A DNA stretch of 64,000 bases. It comes from Channallabes apus. Its lineage: Eukaryota; Chordata; Actinopteri; Siluriformes; Clariidae. Both the position numbers and the translations under genes were made by a program. Below, piece after piece: positions 1 to 63,440 of the stretch (position 1 is its first letter; each line of letters starts with the position of its first letter). The stretch spans positions 19,328,642 through 19,392,641 of the forward strand of contig CM060121.1 of NCBI GenBank assembly GCA_030522415.1. Direction: 5' to 3'. Below the pieces are notes generated by a model. That model saw only the letters and a list, made by a program, of their open reading frames with translations, searched no databases and was not told the DNA's origin.

Positions 1-834
1 GAACGCAGTGTATACACATTTTCATCCCATAAATTATTTGAAAAATTAGTTTATATTATGTCCTGCTTAAAATATACAGTAGCTTTGTGTTTAATTTACT
101 GTAAAGAAGTTAAATGTTCAACTCTTGTATTTAAAGCGTTTAAATGCTGCCCTTGTTGAAAGTGAGACAAATGAGGAAACGAATGTTATAAGGAATGGGC
201 TACATTTAATTACTTTTATTTAAAAAAATTTTTTTTGAAGGTTTAAAATGACAAAATCAGAGAAATATAATATCAAATCCAGATATTTCTAAAATCATGA
301 TAGTTGATACTTAGAGATAATCGCAATCAAATTGAAGCCTAGGTATCGCAATAACGTTGTATCCGGTGATTCCTATCCGTATTAGGTATAGGCTGTAGCC
401 CTCTTTGATGGATTCACTCAGCTAGCTAATGGTTTACCTGTACACCTTTCTGCAAGTTGGATGCTGAGTTGCAGCTCACTCATGCTGTTTCCTTTGAAAC
501 AATAAAACTGAAGATTCCTGATAAATGAGGCCAGGAATGCTTATCTCTCCCTGTCTATGACAATGCTGCTGCTGAAAAAGCAACTGGCAGCAGAAGTGTT
601 GACTTTCAGCATAAAACTGCTTTATTTTGAATGGCCCCTGAAATTGATCTAAAATAAAAACATTATTTAACTTTGAAGTAAAAGTATTTCTTAAATGTAA
701 TAGTTTTACTCTATAATCATGGTCTAAATAAATTGAACAGTCAAATCTTTTTTAATTTTGTACTTTACCAAAATTGTGCATAGCTTTTTACTTTCCTCCC
801 AAAAAGCAAGACTTCAGTGGCTGTGTACTTGGCT

Positions 835-1296
835 TCAGCAAGATTCTTCCCCCTGTAAGTGAAGTGTTGCAATGTCTTGGGATGAAGAAAAAAGTAGTCT
901 GGTGCCATTCACTTCAAAGGACATGTGCTGGTCCTTGGGGTCAACGTCTGAGCTCAAATATGTGTCCCATAATCCCACAGGCATATGCAGGAACTCCAGG
1001 TTGTTTGCATTGTTCTTCTGCTTGAACTTGAACTGGATAATGGTTTTAGTGTAGTGGTTGACGGCAGCGACAGCTGATGCCATGCAGGTAGCAAAGGAAG
1101 TCCAGGCCAAACTGGAGAGGAAATGGTGCAGAATTATCATTTATTTCAACGGTATGGAGTCATATTATTTCAAGCTAAATAGATTAACCAAATATGAAAA
1201 AACATCCACAACAGATAATTGACAAAAAGCAATATTTATACTGTAATAAATGTAATGAAGACGGAGTTTTGATATAAACCTAATTCTGTTAATCAG

Positions 1297-1378
<82 letters not shown>

Positions 1379-3112
1379 CAACAGACTCACTATTACTATT
1401 TCCACTGTCACACAAGCTGTATTCAAGTACAAGTATTTGTACTGTATGACCTTCATTCCTGGGTACCATGCTTGCTGAGTGCGGATTACTTAATAAATGT
1501 GCAAAAACAGACCATCAATCAGACTACATACTGTATACGTACCTCCCCAATTGATCACAGAAGAATTAATTAACCTGCCTGGCAGAATAGGAATAGTCTT
1601 CAGGAGGCAAGTGTAGAAATACTACTATTCACAGAAAAGTAAAAAAATTTCTACAAATAGGCCAAGATGAAAGAAATGAGAGCCTCCGGATTCCTGGAAA
1701 AATGCAAAATGCTCTGGACAGCTGAGCTGAAGATTAATAGAGTGATGGCAAGAGCAAGATGAAAACAAAAGGCACTGCCAGAGATCCAAAGCATTCCATC
1801 TAATCTATAAATCATGGGCCTATTTGGCTGCCACAGATACAATACCGGCTGACTTATCTTCATTGACTATACTGTATATCTGCCGATGGCAGTAAGAAAA
1901 TTAATTATAACGTGTCTAGAATCATCTGATCAGATCAAGTACAACATTAAAGGCCAATCTACAAAAAATAATATTGGCTTTATGTACAGTAGCTTTTACA
2001 TAAAATACCAGTCAAAAGTTTGCACACAATTTTGGATTTATTTTCCACATTCTAGAACAATACAGATTTTTTTTCAAACCTATAAAATACCACAATATGG
2101 CATTAGGTAATTAAGTAACAACAACAACAGTCAGCTGTTATTTTAAAACATGATGGTCAGCTGTTCTGTAATACATAGTTCTTGCAACATTATTGTCAAG
2201 TGCATTTGCAAAACCTACAGTATGAAGCACCATGATGAAACTGGCTCTCGTGAAGAACATCATCTCAGGAAAACAAGAGCAAAACTTACCTCTGCTGCAG
2301 TGGAGTAATTAACAATTAACAGGACCGATTAACAGCACCTCAGATTAGAGCCATTATGAAGGCTTTACAGATCATAAGTAGCAGATACATCTCAATATCA
2401 ACAGTTCAGAGGAGATTAGTGCATATTCTGGATGCCTTCAGCATCATTTACAATAAAGAAACAAATTATGAAAGATCATGGGATTAGAAGGTGTATCCAA
2501 ACTTTTGACTATCAATATGGATTTATTTTACTGCAGTAATTTTGTGTTTAAATTATTAAATTCTATGTAGTGAATTTAACTTAAAAACATTTTTACCATT
2601 ATTTATTATTACTTATATAAAAATTGTTTTTTGCATATTTGACTGGAGTAAAATAAAATGTTCATACATGAATCATTTTCAAATACCATGAATCATTTTC
2701 AAATACACTTTCTCAGGAGCTAGACCAGAGATTCAGATGGGACTCCAGCTGGGTCACAGCTGTCAACTCTTCATACTGTAGGCTTACCATCCCAAGTAAC
2801 TGGAGAGGCATGTCAAGTGACAGCACTGCCCAAGCTGTCAGTTATGCTTGCCATGACATGGAGCAAGTATTGTAACTGAACTTATGATGTTCCACTCTTC
2901 CTATTCTAATAAAAAATCCTATAAAACCCCCAGTGTTGATTTAATACTTTGAATATCCATCTGGACCTATATAAAACTATAGGTTATGTATCAGCAATGT
3001 TCAATATTAGTAAATGTGGCTTACAAATTATGCCAAAGTCTTCCCAAAGCTGATAGTATTCCATTTATTCATGTCCAAAAAATTCCCTTTGAGTTCAGCA
3101 AAGGAGTTTTGT

Positions 3113-3184
<72 letters not shown>

Positions 3185-6100
3185 CTTTTTCTTTTTTAAC
3201 TTTCAGACAGCCTGAGTACACCAGTGGAGAACCATCCCAATATCATGCAGGTAGTTTGGATGTTATGTTAATGTTATATTTTAATTTGTGCACACCGATC
3301 AGCCATAACATTAACCCCACACAACATTTAACACTGATTATCAATTATATGCCAGTAAACTAGTCATGGGCAACCAAGGCCTGTAGGGAGCAAAGGGTAG
3401 CCCATCTGGTCCAATCCCACACACATGCCAAAGCAGCAACTGCAGAAAAAAGGTTGGCCATGATAAAAAGGCACCAGAACACCAAGTGCACCAAAGCCCA
3501 TCATGCATTTGGCACAGAAGACAAAGAGCCCAAGGTCATCAACTCAATCCAATAGAACACTCCTGGGAACAAGCCCGATCCATGCAGGGCCAACATCCTG
3601 GTGCCAGAAATGTCTCGGGTTACTTTGCTGTAACGCTGTTCCCTGAAAAGGCAGGAACGAGATGCTAACCCGAGACGTTCCCTTTCAAAGGCTACGCTTG
3701 ATGCTGCGTGAAAACGCTATGGGAACGAGAGTACCAACGCTGCCGCACTGCAAGTGTCTGGACCCCAAGGTTGTGTAGCGTGTGCGCACAAGGCCGAGAA
3801 GGTCTCAGAACTATGTCTGGGAAGGACCCGTGAGCCCAGAGTGGCATGAACATCCAGACTATAAAATCTAACAAATGTGTGAGAAGAGGATCAACCCGCC
3901 GCGTCACACACTTGCCGCAGGGGAATACCTCTTGCTAGTGCAATACCTCTTGCTAGTGCAATAGATAAGGTGATCCCCCTGGTTGAATGAGCCCTGTAGC
4001 ATCTCTCACCCAGTGTGACAAGGTCTGCCATAACATATGAAAGCTGCTCTGACTTACGCCACTGGCTGGTGCAGTGGACGTAAATCTGAAGAGCACATAC
4101 TAGACACAGTAAGTGAAGTCTCTCCTGCTCCGAAGCTCTAAAAGGCGGAGGATAGAAAGCTTCAAGAACAACAGGGTGCATGGTTAAGAATGGAACTTTT
4201 GGAAGATAGTTCGGTGAGGATGCAAAATGGCCTTGACTAGCCCAGGGGCAAAGTCTAGGCAGGATAGGGAGACTGACAAGGTGTGCAGATCTCCAATCCT
4301 CTTCAGAAAGGTAACAGCCATCAGAAAAACCATCTTAAGGGTCAGAAACCTGACAGGCGCTGACTCTAGTGGTTCGAAAAGGGTGTCAATTAGACCTTCG
4401 AGCACGATAGATAAATCCCACGAAGGGACCGTGGCTCTAGTGGGTGACCTCAACCGTTTAGCTCCATGAATGAAACGGGCAACTAAAGGGTGTTTTCCCA
4501 CAGTAACCCCATCAATCAGAACGTGGCAGCCTGAACTAGCAGCTACGTACGTCCTGAGAGTACTAGGGCACAAGCCCGAGGACAACTTTGCCTGCAGAAA
4601 CTCCAGCACTGAAACAATTCGGCAGTGGACTGGATCTACCTGCTTCGTCATGCACCAACTTTCAAATACATTCCATTTCAGGAACAGTGGAGGGAGCCCT
4701 AGCTCTTAGAATAGTCTCAATTACGCTGGCTAGAAAACCCGCTTAACTTATTTGGTCATGTTCAGGGCCGAGTATGAAGGTTCCAAAGCTCGGGCTGGGG
4801 ATGAAATATTGTCCCCTGTGCCTGAGACAGAAGATCCCTCCTCACTGGAATCACCATGGTGAGCCGTCGAGGAGAGATACTGGATCCAAGAACCACACTC
4901 TGGTTGGCCAACAGGGCGCTATCAATAAGAGGCGCAAACACTGTTGACCGACCCTCGCCAAGACACCGGGAGCAGAGCTATCAGGAAAAACGCTCGGTAA
5001 CCTGGGCTACGCACGGGCCGTCTGCTTGGTCGCGCGAAGGGACATGTCAGTAGCCCGGCGTAATTCTGTGAATGCTATATCATTCACGGTACTGCTCCTG
5101 CTCAAATCCTTTAGCAGATCAGCCTGATACGCCTGCAAAACCGCCATGGTGTGCAAAGATGCGCCGGCCTGACCTGCTGCTTGGAAAGCCTTTCCTACCA
5201 GGGTAGAAGAAGTTCTACATGGCTTGGAGGGAAGTGTTGGCTTCTTCAGTGAGGATGATGTCCCAGGAGAGAGATAGCCCATGAGCGTCTCTTCTATCTG
5301 GGGAATCATAATATAACCTTGTGCTTTTGCATCAACAATATTCGCATAAAACAAAGTTGTTGGTTTGGTCCAGGAACGAGTTAATTCGTTATGGAAAAAG
5401 GGGAGAGAGCGGCGTTGTGGCTCCATCTCCTGGCCACCCGACAGGAATCTGTCATTTAATTTAGAATGTTTGGGGAAGACTTGCTCCTGCGGCCAATCAG
5501 TGTGCAGCCGTTCGACTGCGTGTGTTATGACTTCAAGCATCTCCCCATATTCCCTATCCTCCTTAGAGGAGCGTTCTGAGGTAGCTACTTCCATTTCTAC
5601 AGAAGCAAGAGCGCGAGTCTCTTCTAAACACTCACAAGAAACACCATAGCGCGCTTGTGAAGTGTAAAGAGAGACTTTGCGATCGGAAGAGAGGGCGAGA
5701 GAAAGGAGGCGGGACTCCGTCTCGCGCACCTCGGCCAGACCTGATTATGAGCCCTAGGAGTGCAGCGCGGTTCGTGGTTCCCTAAAGAACGTGCGGGAAG
5801 CACTCTCATGGGGAGATCACATCGTGATCCACGGAGAGCATGATTTTCGCCCAAACACTCAAAGCAAAAAGTGTGGAGATCGCCCTCCGAAAGGAAATTT
5901 TTGCAAGGAGGGGGACATCTCATTTTAAACTCGGCCATTTTATAGGTGAGTTAAACACTTTTCTTTGCTTTTAATAATGCATTGACTTTGCTTGTACAGT
6001 ACACACACATGCAAAATGCGGTGAAGACAAAAGATCTGAGGAATGTTTCCGGTTCACTCCTATTTATAACCTGCAGGTGCGTCTCATCAGATGACTGCAC

Positions 6101-9100: not shown

Positions 9101-12100
9101 CTGCTCGATTCAATGAGTGTGCTCTCGTTCGCAGCCTCCGCTCGGCTGTTGCATGTTGAGTTGGAAAGGTGAGAGTGCGCGCTGCTCAGACACGCGCTGC
9201 TCGATTCAATGAGTGCGCTCTTGTTTGCAGGCTGCGCTCGGCTGTTGCATGTTGAGTTGGAAAGGTGAGAGTGCGCGCTGCTCGGGCACGCGCTACTCGG
9301 ACGCGCGCTTCTCGATTCAATGAGTGCACTCTTGCTCTTGGGCGATTGGCTGTCGTATTTGCGATCTTGACGTTGAAGCACTATTAATTTGGCATTATGC
9401 ATAGCGAGCGCTGTTTTGGTTTCCAGTCTTTCTTTTTTCGCTTTTAGTTGTGCCATTAGTTGTGCTTCCTCTATTTCTAGTCGTGCCTTTAGTTGCGCCT
9501 TTAGCTGTGCTTCCTCTATTTCTAGTTGGAGACGTTCTTCCAAGGTTGCAGCCTTTGCCAACAGCACTGCTCTTTCGGCTTCTTCTTTCTTTAGTCAGGC
9601 TGAGGATGATGTAGAAGTTACAGACCTTTTGGATGCTGCCATTATCAGTGACACGCTGACGCCCGGCGAGACATCTTCGCGTAGTCGCGACGTCACAGAG
9701 TGGCTCTTAGTGTCCTTGGTGTCCGCTATCCAGCGACCCACCTTAGCTATGAATTCTGTGCGGCCTTGAGCCTCAGGTGCGCCGCAGGCGACCTGATCGC
9801 GTTTGTGTTCGTCTTTATGAGTGTACACAAGCACATCAACGTTACTTCTCATGAAGTCCTCTCTCAGCTTCCCATATTCGGGTCTGTACTCAGTTTCAAG
9901 GATGTCTAACTTACGTGCATAGTTCATAGGTGTCTTTAATGCAGTAGACATTGCATTCAGACGAATTCGCTTGCCTTTTCTTGCATCCAGCGCCTCGTTG
10001 AGGTTCTTTCTGTTCCTCTCGTGGAGCGCCGTTAGGCTCCCCAGCCAAGTGCTGGGAGCGTTGTCCTCGTTGTTCGGCATGGTGAAGTTCGACGGCTATT
10101 CTCTTTTACTTTCCCTTTCAGCGTTCACTTGTTTTCGTTCAAACAGCGGAAAAGCTTTTGACTTTATGTAGATGCGGTCATATTATTTCACCAGTTTTGA
10201 CGCGTAGCTTTGTCTTAAAGTTTCACTCACACGACAGAAGTCCGATCTCTTTGTCTCTTGTAGTTTATTTTGTCAGCATCAAAGAATCAACACTTCATAC
10301 AGTCGTCTTGAGTAAATCCACTGTGATTACAGACACCAGTTGCTGCATCTTGCAAATCTCTGACTTTTACAACAACCTATTTACTGTATCTTGTAAATTA
10401 CAGTCTTAGCTTACGTATATACAGTAACAACACTCTTGTTGTATATCTCTACTTATGGGAGCTTACGGTTACAACAACCTAGTTGCTGTATCTTACATTC
10501 TTAGCTTACCGGGAGCTCTCGTTAGCTGACAGTCAAAAGCTTGTGTTTCCGTAGCCTTCCGCATCTAAACTGAACTCTCTTTCATATGACAGACAAATTC
10601 ATGTAATAGTACACACAAATGCATGTAATAGTAGAATGACATCACAGACCAACTTACGATTGTCAAAATGGATGCATAACTTAGACATTTAAAGCTTATG
10701 GCTTATGTAACAAACTTAATGCTTAATGCTTTACTAATGGATAGAACAAGGTAGAATAAATTAAATAACAAATAAAATAAAATAAAATAAACACAACAAC
10801 AAATTCATAACAAGTACGATATGGCTCTTACATGTGCCTTTATAAATGTTTGTTTGTTTATAAAAGTCTTGTGTTAATGTAAGTATGTAATTTCTGCCCT
10901 TATCTAATATGATTATTTGATCACTTTAACCATATTGTTTGGCTTTGCTAGACTTTGCTATGTAATGACCACTAAGCAATTTTGAGTAAATTGATTTTAC
11001 TTACAGATAGGACCAGCTGTAGTCCCAGGTTTTGGGTTTCCAGTCTTGACTGCAAGTTGAAAGGCTGTTGTGAACATGATATGGGCTACCATGCCAAAAA
11101 GACCTGTTAAACAATGACAACACCAGGCAACATACAGTATACTGCAGTATCCATGGTGATCATAGTGCACACCACAAGGGTGCAGTGTTGCACAATGTTC
11201 AGTGCTACTGAAAAAATAACAGCAGTTTCATTGTCAGTATTAAATACGTATTTGACTAAAATTCAGTTGTTTCATTTAATGATGATCGAAACGATAGTGG
11301 AAGGCAGAAAAAGAGGATTGTCTCCGCCAAAAAGCACTGCCCTACAATTAGAGCACAAACTGTCTTTTGTGTCTCTTGTCCATCTTGTTTAATTAAGTAA
11401 ATTAGAATGTGCCATTTTGTTGTGCAATGGAGTAATGAATAGATATTTAAAAAATCCATATACATAGCTGTACTGTTCTGTCTGAGCTGGATCAGTAGAT
11501 GTTAACCCTCTCAAGGCAGGCGTTGCAGATTTGCAACTAGATTTGCAACTACCTAAACAATGTAACAAAGTGCTTTTCAGTGGCAGAACAACAACAAAAA
11601 CAATATGAGATCCAAATCCAATATCTCAAATCCTCAAAACTTAATTTGAGCCTGAAAGGGTTAACCAGGCAAACAGGCTAGCAGGTGGAACAGCTGGATC
11701 AGCTGGCATTGTATAATCCCCCTCCCTTTAGTTCCAGTCAGAGGATCTCCTGCCTGCCATGTGAACTGCAGCCTCGGTGATTGTCTGTGCTTAAGATGCC
11801 TCAATACTCCAGCCAGGCTGCCTCTTCTTAACCCCCAGGCCTGTGGTTAGGGTACTCGATAAAATGTGATATGATTAACACTGCTTCAGGGGGACGAATA
11901 CCACATAGTACATTTCCACTTAAATAAAAGTACAAAAGTACTCATATTCAAATGTACTTAAGTATCAAAATCTTTACTTACTCACTCATCGTCTATATCG
12001 CTTTATCCTGTATACAGGGTAGCGGGACCCTGGAGTCTATCCCAGGAGACTTGGGGCATGAGGTACGTAGGGGTACGCCCTGAATAGGGTGCCAATCCAT

Positions 12101-12117
12101 CACAGGGCACACAGACA

Positions 12118-12155
<38 letters not shown>

Positions 12156-13979
12156 CGGGCAATTTGGGAACGCCAATTAACCTAATCTTCATGTCTTTGG
12201 AGTGTAGGAGGAAACAGGAGTACTAGGAGAAAACCCACCAAGCAGGCGGAGAACATGCAAACTTCATGCACACAGCTCCGCGGTGGGAATCAAACCCAGA
12301 CCCTGGAGGTACAGTACTGTATAAGGTGGCCATGCTAACCACTGGGCCACTGTTTTAATGTTGTATTAATATTTTTATAATTAGACACTTGCTTGATCTG
12401 CTCACTGAGGAGGCTCTTGTATCACAGATCTGTTAATATAATGTCATTAAATGAGTCTTTATCATGGCATTATCATGACAATAAACATGCAGATGAGTCT
12501 TTTCAATTAGGGAGATCTGAAATTCTGTGAAATGACAGGACTTGAAAACAGGCAAACCTTTTTAACATTTATTTTAAATCTATACATACGATCACATATC
12601 TGCCTACCTCTTTTTTTTTTTTAAGAATATAAATCAATGTTTCATCTGTTTGGTATGTAATAGAACTCCACTTCACTTGCTATATGTTTGAACATTAACT
12701 GCATGCAAAAGTAACTAGCCATGCACACGACATACACAAGGAAAGATTTCTCTGCTTTACAGCTCACCTCTCCCAAATGATGCGGACAAGGAGGGGGGCA
12801 AAATTATGTCAGTGACACCTGACTTTCTTATGAATAACACTCATTTCATTCAAAATATTATAAACACAGACCAATAATTTTCATTTATTTAATTGTGTGA
12901 AATGGCTAATAAGAATAGGTAATAAAAAACGATCATGATGTGGAGGTGAATTGGTTTAGTCTTGACTTCTGGTCGTGAGTGACAGCATTGGGGGAAATCT
13001 GTTGATTATTGAATCGTCGATTACAAAGTAAACACAAAAAGGCCAAAGCTGTCAGGTGCCCAATTTAGGAAAAAAAGAAAAGAAGATGAAGAGAAACGGG
13101 CAAAAGATAAAGGTATATAACAATGTTCTCTCTGTATGATTAATGTATTCATGTCATCATGTTAATTAGTGGTATAACGTTAACTCTTAGATTTGTTAGC
13201 CTTCTTGCTTATGATGCTTGCTATGCTTACCTTGCTAAAAAAACACACAATAAAAGCCTAGTATACAAACCAGCACAGAAATTCTAATGGTTTCTATTAA
13301 ATACCATTATGAACTATTAACTTTTTCCAGTGAAACTATTACAAAATTCCTTATTATAGTGTGTTTTGAGCACTTTGGGCACCGGGGGCGCCAGGAGGGA
13401 GTCTCGCCCGGGGAGCAATTCAGTGTAGAACCGCCACTGATGGTACAGTATGATGCCTGATGATTATCCAAGCATTCGTGAAATAAACCTTCCTTCAGGA
13501 GCCTCCTGTTGGGTTTTGGGGACATTTGAGCCTAGAAAACTCTCATCTCATCTATGACAGCTCCAGGATATCAGGGAGAAGGTGTCATGACAGAAAGTTG
13601 ATTTAACAGTAACTGTCAGCTGGATTAGTTATTTACTCTAGTGTACAGTACAGTATGCAGTGGGGCTATTTTATTCCACAAGTGTGTGACTTGTAGCAGT
13701 TATTTACTCATGGTGTGTGCTCTTACCTGAAAGTGCAGTGAACAGGGCTGCAAAAGAGTTCAGCTTAAGTCGGGTTGTTGTGTTACAGCAGTGATGCTTC
13801 TCCACTGCCATGAGTGAGACTCCAATAAATAGGAAAGTAATGTACAAACATTCACCAATAATGCACAGCCATAACACTCCTGAAAGAGAATAGAAATGTG
13901 ATTATTTTAGTAATGTAGCAGCAGCATTTTTCAAATACTTAGAAGTTTCTGCAAATACTTGTTCCTTGCTTGCATTTAG

Positions 13980-14025
<46 letters not shown>

Positions 14026-14831: not shown

Positions 14832-15393
14832 GGCTTCTTCGAGTCAATTAATCTCATACATCCAGTGACTGAATGATTCCTCTCTTTGAGTATGCATGAA
14901 GTAAATGCATTTTAGATTAGCTATTAATGCAAGGAAGGCTTTTTGCAGAAACAAAGCATCAGCATAATTTTTCAAATTCGCTCTCATCCTCTTTGTGAGC
15001 CTTTTTTGTGAGCTCTGGCTCTTTCTCTTTATATCCACCCACCCTTCTGTTAAAACCATTTACTGTTCATGGCAAAAAAGTGCATGTACTGTAAGCACTC
15101 AGGTTATATCATGTTCTATCCAAATCAATAGTAAATTTACAAACAGCAAAATAAAAGATTATCAGACAGATTACTCACCAATCTGGTGCATGGCTCTTCC
15201 TAGTGTTCATCTTGGGACTTTCTAGCATTACTAACATTCATTCTTCAAATGAAATTGCATAGAATTTTATTAGAATGTAGTAATAAAAAGATGATAAAAA
15301 TAAATTATATCAGTCTGTTAAGCATAAGGCAAAGACTGTTAGGTGTGTATGATGTCACAAGGCTTTAAGACATACAGATACATGCTGTCTCTC

Positions 15394-15433
<40 letters not shown>

Positions 15434-15477
15434 GCAGAGATGCAAATGACTGACATCTTTAATGATTATACAAGACG
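14832..15477. other. gsg1l2 upstream flank
   Basis: About 650 bases upstream of the gsg1l2 start. It would hold the 5' untranslated region and promoter, but I see no clear TATA box or CpG-rich patch. A (CT)n run lies at 15388-15434. The next feature is the DIRS-like element. Confidence 0.5.
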
Positions 15478-15898
15478 CGTTCCCTTTCAGTCGATTCACT
15501 CGGTACAACACATATTGTATGGGATATCACGCCCTCTCGTGTCCTGGCTGAAGCCACCTTTATTCACGCTGTAAGGCAGGCAAACCTGTGGTGACGTAGG
15601 TGTAGCCCCGCCTACACCTATAAACCCTCGTCGCCACGGTTGACCTTCAGTTCTTTCGCTCTTCACCTCACTGTGAACACCTTTCCGTAGAGTTTTCTAG
15701 GTGCTGCTAGTCAACTCTACATTTACTTTACTAGACTGCGCTTAAATCAGCTTAACTATTCCTGTTGGTGTTAGCGACAACAGCCTCATTTGGTGAGTCG
15801 TCTACCCGCGCTGATTTTAAGTTCCCTGTCAGTCGTAACATTAGCGACGTTTCGGTTCGGGTGGCTCCTGTTTAGCTGTGCTAACAGTGTAAGCTGTC

Positions 15899-17433
15899 AT
15901 GAGCATGGAAGCTAATGTGGCAAAGAGAAAGTCCGCTGTTCGCCCCTGTCCTCAGAAGTGTGGCTTCTCCCTGCACGAGAAGGACCAGCATGAGGCGTGC
16001 CCCGTCTGTCTGGGAATTCTCCACGCTAGGAGAGCGCTAGCTGAGCCTGAGTCATGTGTGCTTTGTCGCCAGCTCCGGCGTTCAACGCTGGAAAGACGGG
16101 TCACGTTCGTTGAGAGAACCCTGGGAAAAAATACAGTCGCTCAGCAAGACCCCCTCCTTTCCGGACTAGCAGTCCCAGCTTCGCCTGCGTCTGCTGACGA
16201 GGAGTTTTCTTCAGAAGTCCCCGCGCTTAGCTGGGCAGACCAAATGGAGTATTTCGAGGGGTCAGAGGACTGTGAGCTCTCCTACAGCGCTGGCCAGCAG
16301 CCAGGCACCGATCAGCGGCCTTTCGAGGACGAAGACGTGCTCGATATCGGCCTAGAGATGCATGGTTTGTCGGAGGACAAGCATGAACTCTTGCCACTCA
16401 CCCAGAGCTCCTCTGCTACTGCGCTACAGTAGCAGCACGGGACGACACTTCGTTTTTCGCCCTCTACCGGCGAGCGGCCGAAAAGCTGGAAGTGGAGTGG
16501 CCCTCCCCACAGCCAGCTCAAAAACCGTCAAGGTTCGCAGGATTTTTTCTCCCTCCTGAACCGACGACAGTTAAGAACTGCTTGCCTATGTTTCCCGACC
16601 TTGTCGGTGAGCTAACGTCGTCATGGAGCAAGCTGCTGTCGACCCGTGTATCAGTACCCGGTTACGGACAGTTTTTGGAATTGGACGGAGCAGAAAAAGC
16701 AGGACTAGTGAGCCCACCGCCGATGGAGCCATCTTCGGCTGCTTATTTGGCACCCTCGCAAAACCACGGAGTGTCTGGTCCTACTGTTCTTCCGTCCAAA
16801 CACTGCAGATTCTCCTCTGCCCAGCTGGAGAAGATTTACCGCGCTGAAGCGGGCACTGCTCGTGCGCTCAATTCTGTTACGCTGCTCCAAACATATCAGG
16901 CAATGTGTTTGGCGGAGCTCGGTTCACTGGTGCCTCAGGAGAGCCCACTATGTGCGCTGCTTAACGAGGTCAGGACCGCGACAGACTACATTCTGCGCAT
17001 GTCTCGTTGTGCGGCTCTTTCCCTCGGGAGAGGTATGGCGAGCGCAGTGGTAGCACAGAGGCATTTATGGCTCACGCTCTCTGACCTCCCGGATAGAGAC
17101 AGGGCCGTCTATTTGGATGAACCGGTGTCTGCTGAGGGTTTGTTCGGCCAGTCACTCGATGCCATTCAGACAAGGTTCGACTTCAAACGGAAGCAGGCTG
17201 AAGCGTTGCGAGATATCATCCCGCGACGCGAGGTGAAGCCCAAACAGGCTCTAAGAATGACCACTCCGCGGCCACCTCAGAAAAGACCACCGCCGGCAGC
17301 CAGCTCGAGCTCCCGGCCGGTGAAGCAACAACCTCCCGGGCAAAACCCACGGCAGTCGGCCTGGAGTAGGGGCCCCCCACCGGGCCTCCGGGAGGATTCA
17401 GCGACTAGGAGGAAGAATCCTCACTCCTCCTAG
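15899..17433 (+). pseudogene. DIRS gag, broken by a 5-bp footprint
   Basis: First frame 15899-16432 has a Cys-rich start (RPCPQKCGF, EACPVCLG, CVLCRQL) that looks zinc-binding, then an acidic region. It stops at a TAG inside a TACAGTA motif at 16425-16431. The second frame, offset by two bases, continues past 16492 to 17433 with LNSVTLLQTYQAMCLAELGS, DYILRMSRCAALSLGRGM and a Pro/Arg-rich C-terminus. Omitting five bases would bring both halves into one frame, consistent with a transposon excision scar. Presumed nucleocapsid-like protein. Confidence 0.8.
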
Positions 17434-31763: not shown

Positions 31764-34700
31764 CTAAATGTCCATGTCCACAGGTCTCAGATCCCCTGTC
31801 TTGTGCTCCCGTACCCATAGTTCTCTGTCTTTGGCTGGAACCACACTCTGGAGGAGCTGGTCCACTGGCTCCAGGGTCTACAACACACATATCAAATATT
31901 ATTCATTTTTCAGATTGAACATTTAATGTGTTTCAACCTATTCTAAATACAGAGACAAACAAAATATGCATCATCCTTTTTAAAACCCCATTACGTGATG
32001 GATTTCTGGTGTTTATTTATGACCACTCCTACTTCAGGTATATAAAACAGATAAGTACGTATACAGAGTGCCACCGTTTTCATCCCAATATACAGTACAG
32101 TATACTGTAGACATGCATATACTGTAATTCCAACAGAATGATTCTTCACTCTCATTCACGAGAGCATCACTGTACTTAATTGTAGCTGTAAAATAAAGAG
32201 ACCTCTCTGTTTATTACTGTGTCTAACACTGATATTTGGCCGCCGGCCATCATTAAATCTACAGCTTTCACTATGAGTGAAAGCTTAAAAAAAGCTTGTT
32301 TGTTTACACCACTTGTTTACTCAGGTCTGTCTTGGACAGCTTGGTGACCGAAGCTCTAAGTGGTAGGATTTGCTAAAGCGTTTAGTTCTGGATGAAAGAT
32401 GTGGAGCATGCACTTTTAGTAACGAGATCATGGTTAATCCTTTAGCTGGACTAGTGAGCTGTTGTACTGTAAGAAAAGTGTGCATGGAAGTGCTGCATCT
32501 GATATTGCTGTATAGGAAGAATATTTGCGTACTGGCCCGACAAAAACTTTCACATGGTTAAATGTAAACATTTTCTCCTGTATAAATTTTGAGCGCTACA
32601 GGTTTTCCTGGAATGAATAACACTAGATTTCGTCATGTGACGTCAGTAGACCCCCAAAGTGAAAAAGCAATTCCGCGGAATGATGTCTAAACTGCCTAAA
32701 ATCAATATAATTGGATTTTTAAAATGTATTTATTTATTTTTTGAAAACCTGCAAAAGCTTAGAATTTATATTCGTTCACTCACTCCTAGTCTATACCACT
32801 TTATCCTATGTACAGGGTTTCAGGGGGCCTGGAGCCTATCCCAGGGCAGAAGGCAGGGTACAAGAGTAGAAGGGTGCCATTCCATCGTGGGGCACACACA
32901 CATACACACATGCTCGGGCAATTTGGGAATACCAATTAGTGTAATCTGAATGGGGGAGAGGCAGCGCGGTGGTGTAGTGGTTAGCACTGTCGCCTTGCAC
33001 CTCCAGGGTCTGGGTTCGATTCCCCGGCCAGGCTCGATTCCCGTCTCTGTGTGCATGGAGTTTGCATGTTCTCCCCGTGCTTGGTGGGTTTCCTCCGGGT
33101 ACTCCGGTTTCCTCCCACAGTCCAAAGATATGCAGGTTAGACTAATTGCCGTTCCCAAATTGCCCGTAGTGTGTGAGTGTGTGTATGTGTGTGTGCCCTG
33201 CGATGGATTGGCACCCTGTCCAGGGTGTACCCCGCCTAGTGCCCGAAGTCTCCTGGGATAGGCTCCAGGTCCCCCGCGACCCTGAACACAGGATTAAGCG
33301 GTATAGAAGATGAATGAATGAATGAATAGTGGAGCAAACCCGGACCCTGGAGGTGCAATTCACCAGTTTGACACCACTGTGCCACCTAAATATATTTCCT
33401 CAACATTTATTATTTTTTTAAGCCTTACAATTTGCACAAATTACTACATTAGCCAATGTTCATTACGGATTAAAGAAATAAGCTCATAAATGCAAAGTGA
33501 TGGTGTTAAAACAATATGTGAGTCTTTCCATTACTTACACTTTGGTTGAACATGTCTGTTTCACGACGTAGAGTTGTGTACTGGAGCAGGTGCTGCTGTA
33601 TCATCTCCACCCTCTCCACTTCAAGCCTTTCCAACTCCTGTGCAAGAAATCAGATGTGAGAAATCTGGGATACTATAAATGTGTCTAAGAATATTATCTA
33701 ACATTTATATTCAAAACAAGAATACAAATTGGGATTCAGATTAGGAATGTACAACAATTCTCCAGATTGGAAATAAAGTATGAGATTTCCTGACAAACAG
33801 TTTGGGCTACATACGTTGTTTAAATATATACGTTTAATTACCAGACTTGTAGTGACCATCTCTTCAAACCACTTAGATTGAGCTTGATTGTAGAGATCCA
33901 CACAGCGCATCAAGTCATCACCTATTACCAGCAAAACAGACATTCCTTTGCTTACAGAACCACAGACTCAGAGCTTTTTCACACCAGCAGGAGGCAGTCA
34001 CAGCTCAGACTTAGCTCAAAATAATATATCCTGTATATATTCCCTGGACAATATACTAAAATGAAAAAAAAAAAAAAAAACAATCTGGACCATTTGAACA
34101 TAATTGTATAGCTAAGATTGAGGAACCAAATATACACCATTTAAACAAAGTGACATATCCATGTATATTGGAATGAGCTGGTGCTTTTATTAATGTTTGC
34201 CTAAATAATTGGGAAAATATGATAACTGACATCAAGTAAGCAGCATCTAACCATGAATGATGTTTCCTATTTACAGCGGGAACTGTGCGTAGGTGTGTGT
34301 CAGTAGGGCTATACTTCTGAGCTCATCACCAAAAAAAAAAAAAAAAAAGGCATGCTGACACTTCTACATTTAAATGTGCAATGTGCGTCAGAGTAGAATA
34401 CAGAGCAGGAATTCAGTAAGGATTGCTGATTAGCCAAGCTGGAATATGTTTTTTCTTTCTTTTTTTTTTTCATTTAAATGCAGCCATATATAGTATATAG
34501 TTTACTGCTACTGCTGAGAGTTATAATAAACTGCATCTTCCCTGAACACTCACCCCCTGTAAACTCCAATTCCTGTATTGTTACAACCTAGAACTGCAAT
34601 AGATCTTGTACACTATATTCCCAAAAGTATTTGCTTGCCTGCTTTCACATGCAAATGAACTTCAGTAACATCAAATTCTTAATCCATAGGGTTTAATATG

Positions 34701-41735: not shown

Positions 41736-44700
41736 AATTTATCACTTCCAATTACCAAAATGTGTTTTGTTCCTCCTGTTTTATTCATAACTTATTCATA
41801 TTTTATTTTATTCATTAAATCTATTATCTCTGTTTGAACTGACTTTCCTATTGTCTGTACCTGTTTGGAGGAGAAATAAGTAAAGCATATAAATGCTGGC
41901 CCATTTCCTACCACTGTGGAGAACTGGTTAATTCCCCATAATGGGTAATAATGCGCTGTCAGGATTATCTACCCACATCTGTTGCTTTGGCTCTATCCAG
42001 GCTCATTATATGAAGCTCCTGACCTGGATCTGCATAATGCTATACATTGCTCCATCGCCACATGATTACCTGTCCGGAAAATAACATACAGTACGTGAGC
42101 TGGGATTTCTAATAAAGTGGCCAGTGAATTTAGCTATGTAGATACCATTAAATTGGTATCATTCTCTGTGTACCATAAGATAGGTCTCTTTTTTTTAACC
42201 ATGTAAAAGATACTTTGGATTCCTGTTTTATCCTTTGTGTTAGCCTCAATCATTTACTCAGAAGCCTTCAGAATGGCCTACACACTACAGCATTTTCATT
42301 TCTTCAGTAGTAAACAACTATTTTGTTGGTAGGAAGAAAAACATAGATCTGTCTCAGCCCAGTGCCTCACCCAGCCACCTGCTGAGGATGAGGCAATCTG
42401 GCCACAGATACAGTATGGTGTGGTGGTGATGCGTACAGCACAATCTGTTAATGCCATGGTTGCTCACTTACATTTGGACAACATTTTAAAGATATTTAAA
42501 CATAAATAAATATATACTAAAAAAAAACCCTGTACATTTTAAACCTTTAAATTTAGTCCTGTATCATAACCGGACTATGAGAATGTCATAGCAGATGTCA
42601 AAAATGTCATGTCAGTTCATGTCCAGTTGGAGAAAATACTGTAGTTATGTAACTATTCCTTGTAATTCCCATAGCTGACATTTTTACAGCTTAGATGGTC
42701 ATTTTTGCCAAATAATATTACATAATATGATCAAATATAAAATGCTTCCTCACTTGAAATAATCAGGCACTCCGATCTCACAGAAGTATGAGTGTGTGGT
42801 GTAGACTCATATAGACTCAAGCATCTATTGTGCAACATGAGTTTAGTGGGCAGTCGGGTATATCCGTGTTTTATCCAGCTAGCTTGCTGTGCGTGTCTCT
42901 ACAGGATTGGTTCTGAAGATATAATGAGCTGCTTCTTCCAGTTGCTAAGCTTGGCCAATTTAAAAGGGGGGTTTGTACTCTCACATTTGTTACTGAGGTT
43001 TGTTACCAAGGACAAAGATACTGTCTCAAAAGGTTGCCAGTGACAGACACAGAAAAAGACTGACCATCCCTTAGAGACCCTTTTTTTAAGAAGAAGAAGA
43101 AGAAGAATTGGTAGATTATATTTTACATAGACCTATACTGTATGTTTTATGCCTTTTGGCCTTTTGTCCACACACAAACCCTGCTTTGTAGGTCACTGAA
43201 TACTGACCTTTTTGAAAACTTCCTCCAGTTTCCTGTGGTGACGTGTAGACAAAAAAAACAAAAACATTTTTGGATTGTAAGAGCATCTGATATACTGTAT
43301 GTGTTGTATCTCCCTCCTGTGTTTGATGTCAGAGTAGGATATACTGTAGTAGTTGAGAACTATTTTTCCCTGGCTTCTGTCTGAACAACATGGGTTTCTT
43401 GTGAACAAAGGAAAAAAACTGTTAAAATAGCCTTTTAGCTATACATGTGGACTAGATCTTAATCTCTCTCTTTTTTTCTTAACCTAAAGTCTGCTTTTAT
43501 TACTGTATATAAATCTGCTGGATATAACAGATGCGATGGTGTACAGTTTTACAGGTGTACAATTTGCCTACAGCAGTTTTATCCTCCCCAGCTGAATCTT
43601 TTATCGCTAAATGTGCAAATTGCCCTCATTTTGTGTTTAGACTGAAGTTTAGACTGCCTGTAGTTATTATAATTATTGGCAGCCAGTTCTGGAGTAGCTC
43701 GTGTGTCACTCATCGTCTATATCGCTTTATTCTGTATTCAGGGTCGTGGGGGGCCTGGAGCTTATCCCAGGAGACTTACTGTAGGGCATGAGGCGGGGTA
43801 CGCCCTGGACAGGGTGGCAATACATCACAGGGCACACAGTCATTCACATACTACGGGCAATTTAGGAATGCCAATTAGCCTAATTACATGTCTTTTGACC
43901 ATGGGAGGAAATCAAAGTACCCGGGGGGAAACCCACTGAGCAGCGGGAGAAAATGCAAACTCCACACAGACAGAGACGGGAATCGAACCCAGACCCCAGA
44001 GGTGCAAGGCAACAGTGCTAACCACATCCATCCATCCATTTAGAAACCTCCGTAGTTCAACTATTCAATTCAATTTTATTGGTATTGCACTTTTAACAAA
44101 GCAGCTTTACACAATCAAAAAATGATAGAAGTTTGTATGAAATGTGAATGTGTATGAAATAAAATGATGATAAGATTTGGATAAGATTGGATTAGATAAC
44201 TAGGGATCATTGTGCCACTTGTATTTATTTTAACGACCGTGGTAGGACCTCTGGTCAACATTCACACACTATCGGCAATTTGTGAACGCCAGTTAGCCTA
44301 ATCTACTTCTTATAAGTTCTTATAAGAGGGTTCAGAGGAAACCCAACAAGTATGGAGAGAACATGCAAACTCCATGCACACTGAATTGAACACAGATCCT
44401 GAAGGTGCAATCGAAAAGCCACTAAGCCATCACCAGCTGTATGAAACATTTAAAAATTGAACAATACATGAACTGAATGCAACATATTTTCTGTGATAGA
44501 AAGTTAAAAAAGTGACAGTCATGGGAAAACTAGACCAAGTGACTACCCTGCTGCGTTAGCAATCATTATTTCATCTCTTGAAATAATCACACTAGTGGCT
44601 TTGTTTCATGATTTGCTACAAAACATGATATGACAGATCATACAGATCATAATTATAAAATATGTGCTAACTACAGTACATAAAAATATTAGGAAGGACA

Positions 44701-50700: not shown

Positions 50701-53700
50701 AGATTCTAACCTAAATTTTGGTATAGTATCCTAATAAAATGACTCAACGGACTAACAACCCGAGCTAGCCAATAAAATTCCTTCTCCTTTCAAAATCTTA
50801 ATAATGTCTGTCAATAATTTAATTAAGCATATGGTCATTTAAACAATTCTTGGATTTTCCCTAAAGCAGACAACAGTTTATGCACTTGTGCCTTGTCTTT
50901 ATTAACCACACATTAACTCCACAATGGTTAGAGTATAATTAAAATCGCAAGTTTAAATAAACCTAAGACAAATACATTTTAGACGAATACAATTCACCTG
51001 TCCCAAATGAAGCGGACAAGGAGGGGGGCTAAATTATGTCAGTGACACCTGACTTTCTTATGAATAACGCACATTTCATTCAAAATATTATAAACACAGA
51101 CCAAAATAAACAAATTTTAATTTGTTGAATTGTAGGGCAGTGGTGGCTCAATCGGTTAAGGCTGTGGGTTACTGGGTTACTGATCGGAAGGTCGGGGGTT
51201 CGAACCCCAGCATCGGCAAGTTGCCACTGTTGAGCCCTTGAGCAAGGCCCTTAACCCTATCTGCTCCAGGGGCGCTGTAAGCTGGGCGACCCTGCGCTCT
51301 GACCCCAGTTTCCTAATTGGGATATGCGAAGAAGAAATTTCGCTGTGCTGTAAAAAGTACATGTGACAATAATTGAATATTCTTCTTCTTCTTCAAATGG
51401 CTAATAAGAATAGGTAATAAAAAATTATCATGATGTGGAGGTGAATTGGTTTGGTCTTGACTTCTGGTCGTGAGTGACAGCGTTGGGGGAAATCTGTTGA
51501 TTATCGAATCGTCGATTACAAAGTAAACACAGCGATGGAGAGATAAAGGCCAAAGCTGTCAGGTGCCCAATTTATGAAAAAAAGAAAAGAAGATGAGGAG
51601 AAACGGGAAAAAGATAAAGGTATGCAACAATGTTCTCTCTGTATGATTAAGGTACAGTATTCATGTCATTATGTTCATTAGTGGTATAACGTTAACTCTT
51701 AGATTTGTTAGCCTTCTTGCTTATGATGCACTCAAAAAAATAACTCGTTGAATGGATATAATTAAATTATGGAAAGAATTTCCACCTGATTTAATGGCTT
51801 TCGTTCAGCATTAAGCAATTTTGTTGGCCCAATTTAATGTTTTTAGGTTCCGTCAAAGTAATGTTATTAGGTTCATTTAACTTATTTACTACAGCTGCAT
51901 CCAACATAATTTAATACTGTTAACATAAATTAATAGGGTTGGTACAACAAATTTTTCAGTTGTAAATTAAGTTGATCCAACTCAAGTAAATTTAAATTTC
52001 AAGCCCTGGTCAACAGTATTCTGTGAAGGAAGGAAAAAGACAAATGGGATAAAATTGAGATTTTTATTTTACACCAGGAGCAACTTACAAATGAGGTCTC
52101 AATTTGAAAAGATGTACAAAACATAAAACACCACAAATAAGTATTAATTAAAAAAAAAAAAAAAAAACACCAACAGAAAAGTTTTGTACTTTATAACTGT
52201 ATGTTATGACTTTTAAATATGACCGTTAGATACGTTGGTCAGGAAACTCCTGAAGTCAGATGCAGACACGACACTTTCAGTCACAAACTCCTGTGAAAAA
52301 ATACAGAGATAGATATTCAATTAAAATTCATGATACTTAATTTAGCAAATGAACAATATTTAGTAAGAAATAAGCAAGAAATAACTTAAACCAAAATAAC
52401 GTGACTAAACATCGCTAAACAGGTGACATTTATGTTCAGTATTTCGTTTCTATTTAGAAAGATGGGAATTAATTCCTGCTTACCTTTTCCACAAGCCCGC
52501 CAACGTTTGTCTTCTCAAACTGTCTTCTCTTCTCGCGATGTCTTCTCGCGATATTTCCGGTTTTGCTATTTCCGGTTTTCATATTGACAAGATCTCGTTG
52601 GTTTATCTCAACATGATTGAATCTAGTACATGTTAAGTTGTTGAGTTTCATGCAAATACAACATAACTTATTCATGTTTAGCTTGGAAACATGAAATTAT
52701 TATGTACAAAACACATATTACATTTTAGTACATGTAACAGATAGCCATGTTCATTTTTTTTGAGTGGCTTGCTATGCTTACCTTGCTAAAAAAATAAACC
52801 ACACACACACAATAAAAGCCTAATATACAACCTTGGATGAGTGGCTTGGGGGCACCGGGAGGGAGTCCCGCCCGGGGTACAATTCAGTGTAGAACCGCCA
52901 CTGTTTGTAGGCCTCATTTGTTGCCCATGTGTTTTTTATTTTTAGTTCTGCCCACAAATTGTTGATTGGTCAGGGTCACTCTAATACCATGAATGTATTG
53001 TTCTTAAGCTATTATACCACGATTTTGTAAGTACAGTAGGCTTAAATTATTGTCTATTTGGAAGAACAATTTGTAACCAAGATTTATCTTCCTGACTGAT
53101 GTCTTGAGATGTTGCTTCAATATATTCACATACATTTCTCCATCCTGAGCACCCTTTCAGATTACATTTGCTCTTGTTTTACTGTGGATATAAATACTTT
53201 GCTGTCGTCCAGGGATTGATTCATCCTTTTAGTACCAAACAATCTCATTTTTTCTTAACCATAGACTGAATTATTTTGATTTTCCAACAATGTCAATCAA
53301 AGAGGCACTAAATTTAAAATTAAGCCTGATTGACTCCAATTAGCCTATCAAAAGCTTCTAAAACTACATCATCATAATTATCAGGAATTTTTGGAATTTC
53401 TGTTTTAAGGCCCAGTCAACTGAGTGTACAGGATGTAAACATTTGAAACCATAGGGAATTGAAATAATCCATCCGTAAACATTTGTTGGAAAAATTACAT
53501 CATAGATGAAATAGTTGTTCTAAAAGACAAGGCAAAGGATGAAGACAAAAATGTAACATGAAATCTGGTGGATAAAAAAATTAGCTTTAATGTCTTCAAC
53601 CTAAGTGTATGTAACTGTATAATGAAAAGGAAAGGATTACCTGTAGAAATTAAGATTTAAGATTGACAATCTTGCCAATTTTCCTAAACTCTCATTTTGA

Positions 53701-54305: not shown

Positions 54306-54348
54306 CAGTTGAAGCACAGGATTAGATACTGTATAAATAATATGTAAT

Positions 54349-55760: not shown

Positions 55761-56160
55761 AATCACACTTTTTGAACTATTTACGTATACGCATTCTCAT
55801 GCATTTTCACATTAAATTTGTTAAAATCAACAAATTCCTTAAAAGCATACAGTATGTATGAGAAATGACATCACACAAGTTAGAAAATATCAATCCATAT
55901 TACATACTGTTAATGGTTTTAATGTATGTGAGAAATATAGCTGCCTGAAATAAATCCTACAATAAACACAAACTATACTAATACAGTTAAACAATGGTAT
56001 GGTTTCCCTTGAAGTCGTGGTCTGTCATGAGACTTTTTTTATTAGCATTATTCTCTCTCTTATTCCTCACTGATTTTTGTTTGTTTTTTGCATTTCAAAA
56101 AATAATTTTTTTATGGTTTTACAAACATACTGTATTATCTTGTAGAAAAACCACATTTCT

Positions 56161-56465
56161 CATCTCATTGGCTATAATGCTTTATCCTCTATACAGGGTT
56201 GCAGGGGGCATGGAGTCTATCCCAGGAAACTTAGGGCACGAGGTGGGGTACACCCTGGATGGAGCACCAATACATCGCAGGGCACACAACCCAATTAAAC
56301 TAATTCGCATATCATTAGACCGTGGGAGGAAACCAGAATACTCAAAGGAAACCCATCCAGGACGGGGAGAACACGCAAACTCCTTGCACACATACCCGAG
56401 GTGGGATTCAAAACCTGGACCCATTAGGGGCAAGGCAACACTTAGCCAAACACTAAGCCACCATG
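56161..56465 (-). repeat. Family A SINE
   Basis: Decayed reverse copy. At 56232-56233 it keeps TA in AACTTAGGGC, the unhit state of the 43777 footprint site. Confidence 0.8.
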
Positions 56466-56526
56466 CCATCTTATGCCACATTTGTGAAATATATTAATGA
56501 AATCTTACAGTATTATATATATATTT

Positions 56527-60800: not shown

Positions 60801-60823
60801 TATGCTTTAGCAGGGAAAGAGTT

Positions 60824-62656
60824 CACCCTAAAAAATGCTGGGTTAAAAACAACCCAGTCTGGGTTGTTTTTAACCCAGCTGCTGGGTAAATATAGGACTA
60901 ACTAAATGCTGGGTTAATTTAACCCAGCAAGATGGGTTATTATTATTTTCATGTTTTACAGTGAATCTGTAAAAAAAAAAAAAAAAAAAAAAAAACCACC
61001 CATGTCTATTAAACAGTTAAATTATTTTGATATACTGGTCTATTACAAAAAAAACATACATATATGCAATAAACATCCTATTACATGTTCTTGGAAAAAA
61101 TATTTATTTTTCAAAAGCACAAGAACAGATAATCAACAGTGACCTCATTACTATACTATTACTGATAAGGGCAGAATGGAGTAATTGCACAAATAGACTG
61201 AGGCAGCTTCTACAGAGCAGGATCTCTCTGTGACTTAAGATATCTTTTCTGCAGAACAAAACTATCCAGCCCTGGTCTCATTTTAACATACAAACACTAT
61301 GACTTTTCAGGTAGGCCTCGCTATTTCATAGCAAAATTACTGAGAGCAGCGCTGGTCATTATCTCCCAACGTCAGGATGTAGGGGTACGGCCTCGACACT
61401 TCAGCCACAATGTTGGTTCCAACCTTAGAAAGAAAGAAACGAAAAAGTTAAAATTTTGTTGAATAGCAAAGATTAAACTGAATAAGACTATTAATTTAGT
61501 GTGAAATAGGATTGATACTAAAAAATTAAAGCTGCCCGTTAAGACAGGGTATAGGTAACCTAAAACAAAAACATGGAGACAGCTACTACCAAAAATAAAA
61601 CAGCAAAATAAGCATGGCTTTTAGGATACAGCTCTTTATGTCAGACTAGTTGATAGTGGTCTACATTGATTTTAAGCTAATTACCGAAAAAATTTCATAG
61701 CTGGTGTCATACTGGTACATTACAATCACCAAAATATTAATACTTCCATCTAGTAGTCATCTGTACCGCTGTGGTACTTTTTCCTGTAGTTGGCGCGCTG
61801 ACTGATAGTTAATTTAACTTTGGTTAAAGAGAGCTACCTGGTTAGCTTACATGCTATTACTGGTGATACATTTGCATACTTGCCAAAGGGGGAAATGTGT
61901 AAAATATTGTTATAACTCGGGAGAAACGCAGGAGAAATTTGACCGCAGAGTAAATTACTAGCTAGTGAAAAACAGGAGGGTTAGCAGGTCTGTATATTTG
62001 TGAGAGGGTCAGTGTTTTGTAAAACACCAGCATTTTATTGTCTCAAGCAGTGAGATTAATAAAGTTCTAAAGTGGTTGCTAACGCTAGCAAACTAACTAA
62101 ATGGCTGCGTCATGCTAACACTACAGTTAACAGTTTAGCGTTCATTCATCACTTCACCATCTTCGTAACCCTGCAAACATTCTACAGAGAAAGCTAAAAA
62201 GCTCAGACATCTTAGCCGTTTCTTTCATACACAGGTGGGGTGGCTAGCAGCTATTCTCAGCTAAATTATCATCCAGTACCTCAGACCAGCCGGAAAGTTT
62301 GTGTGTAATCTTAACACGGTAACAGCAATAAATGTTACATATAGTAATAATTTTTCAGTCATATATGAATTAGGTGAGTGAACATGTGTATACAGACCTT
62401 GTATTTAACGTCATTTCCCCTTAAATGTCCGAGGAGGATGAACCGTCATCAGCGGTGTGGGAGCTCAAGAGACACAAAGCTGAGTGACAGCCGCTGAATC
62501 CACCGGTGAACTTTGGGGGAGGGGCCAATCAAACTTCAACCCAGCAGCTGGGTTACACAAAAACTACCCAACTCTCTGTAAATAACCCAGAAAAATGACC
62601 CAACAGCGGCAACCCAGCGTTTGGGTGGAAAAAACAACCCAGCATTTTTTAGAGTG
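60824..62656 (-). mobile_element. TIR element with CACYCTAAAAAATGCTGGGTT ends
   Basis: Left end CACCCTAAAAAATGCTGGG; the right end read inward is CACTCTAAAAAATGCTGGG. It is flanked by TT on both sides. AACCCAG motifs repeat at both ends. A minus-strand stretch near 61419-61330, preceded by an acceptor-like site, reads VGTNIVAEVSRPYPYILTLG then DNDQRCSQ and a stop. This resembles a piece of SAM-domain-type fish proteins, recalled only weakly. No transposase. Confidence 0.72.
60970..60995. repeat. Poly-A run
   Basis: About 24 A inside the CACYCT-ended element. Confidence 0.9.
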
Positions 62657-63152
62657 TTCAAGGATGTTGAAAATGCCTTCAAATTCCCCAGATCCCATTC
62701 CGAATGAGCACCATGGGATGAACCTTGCTATTGTTGCTATTAACCTAGATAAATACATTTTAATACTAAACAACCATATAAATTGCAGTCACATTGTGTG
62801 TCAAAATAATCACAATGTAAATATTTGGCCACACTGTGCAGCCCTACTTTAAACCCTATTTTTGCAGTTTCATGAATCAATTATACAGTATACTGTATGT
62901 AAATAATATTCTGATTACTCTTTCATTAAATGAACCCATTTTTGTACTAATGCAGGTCTTTGCTATCAACATAGACAATGTGGCAGTATCTGATCACAAA
63001 CTAGATTAAACAAATCATGTTAATTTCAAGATGTTCAGTTCACTATGGCATGTGTCCAACAACTTGGACCAAAACCTGAGAAAAGTATCCTCCTCTTGAG
63101 AAACGTGTTCTCACATAAAGCAAAGACTTTTTCTCACTTCTACTTAGGCAAC

Positions 63153-63440
63153 TTAGGTGGCATAGTGGTTAGTCTCACATCTCCAGAGGTTAGGGTACGG
63201 TTCCAGCTTTTGTGTCTGTGTGTATAGAGTTTGCATGTTTTCCTTGTGCTTGGGGGGATTATTCCAGTTACTCTGGTTTCCTCCCACAGTCCAGAGACAT
63301 GCAGGCTAACATAGGCTAATCGGCGTTATCAAATTGCCTGTAATGTGTAAGTGAGAGAGTGATTGTGTGTGCTTGTGTTCCTGCGATGGAGTTCAACCCC
63401 TCATGCCCTGAGTGGGATATATACAGTATATACAGTATAA
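63153..63440 (+). repeat. Family A SINE, decayed
   Basis: Head GGCATAGTGGTTAG, middle TTTGCATGTTTTCC and GGTTTCCTCCCACAGTCCA. The tail is replaced by TATACAGTATATACAGTATA. Confidence 0.82.

Follow-up and report, generated by a model that had tools for sequence, protein, structure and literature searches.

Excision of the Sleeping Beauty (SB) transposon is known to leave a short footprint, and the literature, which we cite here and below from the accessible parts of each paper, describes its sequence (TACAGTA or TACTGTA), the gain of 5 bp at a TA and the 3-nt overhangs (PMC4378557, PMC7827188). The same word, hereafter TACWGTA (W being A or T), abounds in a stretch of 64,000 nucleotides (the window) from the catfish Channallabes apus (assembly GCA_030522415.1, contig CM060121.1, positions 19,328,642 to 19,392,641), where most copies are probably excision footprints of CAG-ended Tc1/mariner transposons. 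The laboratory footprints of SB come from engineered events in tumours or cells and have been put at 153, 139 and 8 per tumour, and the mouse genome has the word at more than 300,000 places (PMC4378557, PMC7827188). The catfish scars, unlike those of the laboratory, would be inherited and natural, with an excess of about 1.3 per kb. Given a mouse genome of 2.7 Gb, the murine count corresponds to about 0.1 word per kb, which at that genome size is near or below chance, versus 1.45 per kb in the window.

Another related transposon, ZB of zebrafish, has a target preference for ATATATAT, called “very similar” to that of SB, and leaves footprints of 0 to 3 bp (PMC7913693). These footprints, however, were obtained from transfected cells, and the natural survey of ZB, in the accessible part of that paper, covers elements and not scars. 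In another catfish, the channel catfish, Tc1/mariner elements form the largest repeat class, with 8.8% of the genome (PMC5953449) or 4.2% as cited elsewhere (PMC4683633), and copy numbers have been put at 32,000 for Tipnon, about 4,000 for Tip2 and 150 for Tip1 (PMC4683633, citing others). The fish Tc1 termini CAGTTGAAGTCGG appear in this literature (PMC5953449, PMC4683633), and a fish Tc1 terminus primer begins with TACAGTTGAAGTCGG (PMC4683633). Such work differs from ours in that element copies were annotated, with no scar count in the accessible parts of either paper; the single use of “footprints” there (PMC5953449) seemingly means element copies. In the blunt snout bream, one tabulated Thm3 insertion has the right flank TACAGTACTA (PMC4683633), and its target may itself have been a footprint-like word.

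Natural excision scars have been compared genome-wide in two rice species, where 94 putative excisions included 8 perfect ones, the others carrying deletions and/or filler (PMC4423477), whereas the catfish scars are uniform and recognisable from a single sequence. The literature searched, with subscription journals mostly outside it, yielded neither a genome-wide count of natural SB-type footprints in a fish nor a natural density comparable to the present one. The mechanism is already known, and what is unusual here is the presence of inherited, natural footprints of one type that are dense enough to be noticed by eye in raw sequence.

A Single Word in Excess

The window contains 51 copies of TACAGTA and 42 of TACTGTA, or 93 in total, where a first-pass annotation of the same DNA had counted about 90 by hand and, from an assumed composition, expected about 13. 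Base composition alone predicts 12.5 copies, and dinucleotide shuffles (n = 100) gave a mean of 10.75, with a standard deviation of 3.46 and a maximum of 20. The order-2 Markov expectation is 14.1 with the motif included and 11.0 with the motif collapsed to TA, the order-3 expectation on the collapsed sequence being 11.1. Simulations of orders 3, 4 and 5 (30 runs each) trained on the collapsed sequence had means of 11.0, 9.3 and 6.4, with 18 as the largest value, and those trained with the motif left in reached 17, 27 and 61 (largest, 82); the last mean is discounted because an order-5 model mostly relearns the motif itself. This leaves an excess of about 82 copies, or 1.3 per kb, over the roughly 11 that chance would produce. 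Of the 18 positions singled out by the first-pass annotation, 12 were exact and 6 lay 1 to 7 bases off, the corrected values being 30548 for 30541, 38408 for 38401, 47217 for 47216, 49472 for 49474, 55848 for 55851 and 58403 for 58401.

The excess is confined to this exact word. TACWGTA is the only TANNNTA with such an enrichment (93 versus 14.1 expected), and of the words that occur six times or more TAAAATA (63 versus 31.7) has the next highest ratio. Large excesses in the TANNTA and TANNNNTA classes are those of microsatellite words, and the highest of the remaining words there have small counts, such as TAGTAATA (8 versus 2.5). No other Tc1/mariner footprint class (2-nt, 4-nt or other 3-nt) shows a comparable excess in the window, with TACACTA at 10 versus 10.1 expected and TACGTA at 10 versus 5.1. 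Control words on the + strand are scarce (TACGATA 4, TAGCATA 1, TAACGTA 0, TAGATTA 8, TAGTCTA 3), including the shuffled TACGATA with which the first-pass annotation had proposed to compare the motif. One-base neighbours, counted on both strands, range from a deficit in TACAATA (9 versus 15.8) to a modest excess in TACAGGA (22 versus 14.0) and TACTATA (14 versus 9.0), while TACAGTC, TACAGTG and TACAGTT occur 7, 12 and 15 times against 9.8, 16.1 and 16.5 expected; taken together, all one-mismatch neighbours show a weak excess (243 versus 220–226).

Flanks of a Probable Insertion Site

The flanks of the motif show the ZB/SB type of preference for insertion into AT palindromes. When the 64 palindromic half-sites are ranked, ACA-TA-TGT comes first and ATA-TA-TAT second. 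Scored out of six against the consensus AYATATRT (AYA-TA..TA-TRT), the 82 isolated copies average 3.37, while 341 other TANNNTA sites average 2.30 (p = 1.1e-10), and with ATATATAT as the model the averages are 2.73 and 1.94 (p = 2.2e-7). Against a background of TA sites, five of the six flank positions are individually significant for all 93 copies, the exception being +3 T (p = 0.18); only the copies at 43293 and 63422 match all six.

Gains of Five Base Pairs in Repeats

The first-pass annotation had proposed to look for 5-bp gains at TA in alignments to related species, and such gains are seen against the usable paralogues within the window (10 bp for a nested motif), with one exception that is weighed below. 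The surroundings of each copy were aligned with and without the footprint to partners more than 200 bp away, and removal was preferred in 11 of 11 paralogue comparisons, which represent five of five motif copies at four places; in 3 of the 11 a qualifying alignment was obtained only after removal. Paralogues existed for 23 of 360 control TANNNTA sites, and 4 of these favoured removal: one overlaps the footprint at 51653, another sits within an AT repeat and the remaining two represent one event at 63307-63312. A scan of deletion lengths from 1 to 14, with one partner per place, found the best fit at 5 bp for 2216, 43777 and 51653 and at 10 bp for the nested motif at 12310. Since 43777 and 12310 lie in one repeat family, the four places span three families.

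A gapped self-comparison gave partners for four motif loci, three of them with a gap of exactly 5 bp at the motif, seen in 1/1, 6/7 and 1/1 of their partners. Two of the six shorter paralogues of 43777 keep the TA (CTTA-GGGCA), and the seventh copy has a 14-bp gap.

Two further length differences were observed in the repeats. At 12065-12070, one repeat copy has an extra 5 bp containing TACGTA, absent from five others, and this may be a different type of footprint. A 5-bp gain at 63302-63315, GGCTAACATAGGCTAAT, seen against several copies, looks like a short duplication rather than a footprint.

Orientation and Nesting

The two forms of the motif are equally frequent (51:42, p = 0.41 against 1:1), which could be explained if the A:A mismatch of two CAG overhangs were resolved at random. 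Three pairs of motifs share a TA (12310, 13644 and 32091) and three more pairs lie 7 to 9 bp apart. Random placement predicts 0.13 shared-TA pairs and reached three in 0 of 2000 runs, versus 1.2–1.3 pairs on average, and at least three in 13–15% of runs, when 82 events were simulated as re-insertions at TAs (60 runs per setting).

Flanks of 60 bp were compared all against all, excluding pairs closer than 130 bp, and those of the 93 copies are largely unrelated. The one similar pair, 48824 and 49412, is alike over 23 bp and brackets a Tc1-like derivative with CAC ends (48833-49384), each member lying just beyond one of its inverted ends.

A Broken Retrotransposon Frame

One copy of the motif, at 16425, falls in the gag-like frame of a DIRS-labelled retrotransposon. 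Frame 2 (15893-16432) terminates in a stop codon that the motif creates, the remaining gag-like protein continuing in frame 1 to 17433. Two conserved anchors of this protein are 53 nt apart in the window. Of 74 relatives found, 16 have both anchors and 12 of these 16 space them by 16 residues (48 nt); as 53 nt is not a whole number of codons and equals the common spacing plus exactly 5, the gag frame would break at the motif. The terminal repeat pairs of this copy are 97–99% identical, and from this we infer that the scar at 16425 is recent.

Table 1. Coordinates of TACWGTA features in the window.
Position	Strand	Feature	Comparison or remark
75..63437		Field of 93 footprint-like TACWGTA words	Starts 75 to 63431; about 11 expected by chance
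2216..2222	+	Putative TACAGTA footprint in Tc1-like relic	Sole paralogue 48844-49328 (77%) exactly 5 bp shorter
10382..10388	+	TACTGTA, counter-case	Nearby partner 10469-10509 (79%) reads TGCTGTA
12310..12321	+	Putative nested double footprint TACAGTACTGTA in repeat copy	Copy 32976-33091 best fit after exact 10-bp deletion
13644..13655	+	Pair of nested motifs TACAGTACAGTA with one common TA	
16425..16431	+	TACAGTA in gag-like frame of DIRS retrotransposon	
32091..32126	+	Cluster of four motifs: TACAGTACAGTA, TACTGTA 7 bp on, TACTGTA 17 bp further	
43293..43299	+	TACTGTA, full 6/6 flank match to AYA..TRT	
43777..43783	+	Putative TACTGTA footprint in multi-copy repeat	Six other copies exactly 5 bp shorter
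51653..51659	+	Putative TACAGTA footprint	Sole paralogue 12900-13217 (91% identical) exactly 5 bp shorter
62884..62897	+	Adjacent motifs TACAGTATACTGTA	
63422..63437	+	Two motifs 9 bp apart, TACAGTATATACAGTA	Copy at 63422 matches AYA..TRT at 6/6 flank positions

Search for the Source Element

Tc1 transposases share conserved core peptides, and a search of the window with such patterns found no core motif, the only matches being the short GRPR (3) and WP..SPD (1). None of 27 TA-flanked inverted repeats in the window has CAG ends. Pairs of TACAGT...ACTGTA ends are limited to two weak ones, with 16 of 25 and 15 of 25 positions matching, and the remark of the first-pass annotation that the window holds no intact element with matching CAGT ends agrees with these searches. 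A hint of an SB terminus at 50935 was rejected, the best match having 7 mismatches of 25, equalled or beaten in 32 of 200 shuffles.

The window does contain relics that we take to be Tc1-like, one at 48833-49384 and another starting at 34609, and both have CAC ends; the footprint word predicted from such ends, TACACTA, is the one found above at its expected count. The former is a TA-flanked deletion derivative with inverted ends CACTACC(T/G)TTCAAAAG, abutted by the motif at 48824, and a second, diverged copy at about 2010-2515 holds the motif at 2216. The latter, presumably of a fish Tc1 family, extends to about 35250, begins with TACACTATATTCCCAAAAGTATTTG and lies between inverted copies of a common repeat (32983-33327 and 35287-35643). 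CAGTT-ended elements like the fish Tc1 of PMC4683633 are the likeliest source of the footprints, Passer-type elements being the alternative.

Probable Excision Footprints and Rival Readings

Most TACWGTA words in the window (about 82 of 93) would be excision footprints of CAG-ended Tc1/mariner transposons, likely of the SB/ZB type of the Tc1 clade, a reading that we derive from the sequence and hold with a probability of roughly 90%; the excess, the 5-bp gains against paralogues and the ZB/SB-type flanks all support it. According to this model, an element would insert at a TA, preferring ACATATGT or ATATATAT, and the TA would be duplicated. The transposase would then cut the non-transferred strand 3 nt inside the element, so that CAG overhangs would remain on both flanks, and their end joining, presumably in the germ line, would produce an A:A mismatch settled as either CAG or CTG. 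The net change would be from TA to TACAGTA or TACTGTA, with a gain of 5 bp.

The closest rival keeps the excision and replaces the element, with the same kind of footprint left by a CAG-ended pogo-type transposon, such as Passer, instead of one of the Tc1 clade. Pogo-type elements have CAGT ends, although the term “cag” is absent from the main text of the Passer paper. Passer occurs in Clarias magur, with a table row that reads as 17 copies, 5 of them intact, and 100% transposase identity; it inserts at TA and leaves footprints of 0 to 4 bp (PMC9976928). Its target palindrome is, however, AAGTACTT (PMC9976928), and the corresponding half-site, AAG-TA-CTT, ranks 21 of 64 in the window, where ACA and ATA rank 1 and 2, which leaves this candidate with a small share of the probability. 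More improbable still is that selection has spread and maintained TACWGTA as a functional palindromic word, such as a binding site. In favour of this, the motif is exact and, like its flanks, palindromic, and one-base variants are seldom in excess. The motif is, however, a gain of 5 bp where it occurs in repeats of three families and disrupts a retrotransposon frame, and a binding site predicts neither the nested forms nor the high rank of insertion-type half-sites.

The remaining explanations can hardly be sustained. Fish Tc1 elements begin with TACAGT (primer in PMC4683633), and the words could in principle be ends of short inverted-repeat elements or members of one repeat family; this is already disfavoured by TACAGTA alone being in excess, and not TACAGTC, TACAGTG or TACAGTT, by the meagre yield of the paired-end search and by flanks that are unrelated except in the pair 48824/49412. 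Base composition, microsatellites or chance could be invoked for AT-rich DNA with TATA-rich stretches, where a motif-trained order-5 model does reach 61 copies, but the counts already refute them: the Markov-corrected expectation, on which the first-pass annotation had staked its idea, is 6 to 11 copies against 93 when the models are not trained on the motif, and on the + strand TACGATA, TAGCATA, TAACGTA and TAGTCTA number 0–4 each, where the two forms of the motif number 51 and 42.

Several observations weigh against excision footprints as the explanation. The window yielded neither a CAGT-ended element nor an SB-type terminus, which leaves the source unseen, and for two bagrid catfishes a polymerase chain reaction with an SB-type terminus primer is tabulated without a product (PMC4683633). 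Usable paralogues are absent for 88 of the 93 copies, two of the four empty-site places have one paralogue each and the nested place has one partner. Controls of the gapped self-comparison had majority 5-bp gaps at 3 of 25 TANNNTA loci, and the motif at 10382 shows no 5-bp gain against its nearby partner. The anchor spacing in gag relatives is not constant, the other 4 of the 16 having 13, 14, 17 and 17 residues. Since footprints of ZB in the laboratory are 0–3 bp long (PMC7913693), shorter scars should exist too, and they are not recognisable in the window. Lastly, the few decay products (243 versus 220–226) require that the footprints be fairly young.

Age and Number of the Putative Scars

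The excess of one-mismatch neighbours is 17–23, versus about 82 intact copies, which suggests a young field; by our own arithmetic, with a wide error, its mean age would be roughly 3–4% and at most about 9% divergence. A depletion of the motif in young transposons was considered and rejected: four blocks (Pao-type, DIRS, LINE-like and inverted-repeat; 14.18 kb) hold 1 of the 93 copies versus 13.1 expected by their share of TA, or about 9.6 by our arithmetic without the inverted-repeat block, and the p-value is not relied upon because the blocks were drawn by hand after the gaps had been seen, and are richer in G+C.

The channel catfish figure of 417.8 Mb as 44% of the genome (PMC5953449) gives about 950 Mb, and if the remaining genome resembled this one window, its density would extrapolate to some 1.2 million scars. 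We consider the odds even that SB-type germ-line excisions in this lineage number about a million within a few percent of neutral divergence, with scars far outnumbering elements, the change from TA to TACWGTA among the commonest insertions, and excision countable locus by locus from one assembly.

Genes and Other Elements in the Window

A Pfam scan covered 10 frames of the window. An exon of the GSG1 family lies near 14.4–14.8 kb (Pfam E-value 2.4e-32) and a recoverin exon near 25.7–26.2 kb, the latter 100% identical to Clarias magur across 99% of its length, and 98% identical to Hemibagrus guttatus. The recoverin exon would by itself point to a siluriform host, probably Clarias or a near relative. 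A Pao-type retrotransposon is present (Peptidase_A17), and within an open frame adjoining its reverse transcriptase frame there is a minisatellite at 8980-9299 (3.3 copies of 96 bp). The DIRS-labelled element has a reverse transcriptase match at 18035-18616 and many fish relatives of its gag-like frame; a stretch at about 22.3–24.1 kb resembles a long interspersed nuclear element (LINE), with no Pfam match in the single frame tested. The DIRS and LINE labels are our own. A short interspersed nuclear element at about 51130-51370, which we take to be tRNA-like, splits a repeat whose unsplit copy lies at 12758-13217.

What Scars Would Tell

The copy counts of DNA transposons reveal only the elements that stayed. 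As searches of this window revealed no CAG-ended element beside the scars, element annotation alone would miss the activity that they suggest. From scars that are exact, dense and recognisable, one could count and date excisions and set them against insertions, and a genome with such scars would show the load of frameshifts and indels from cut-and-paste elements and reveal families that have been lost. There, past jumps may remain on record in a form that can be counted.

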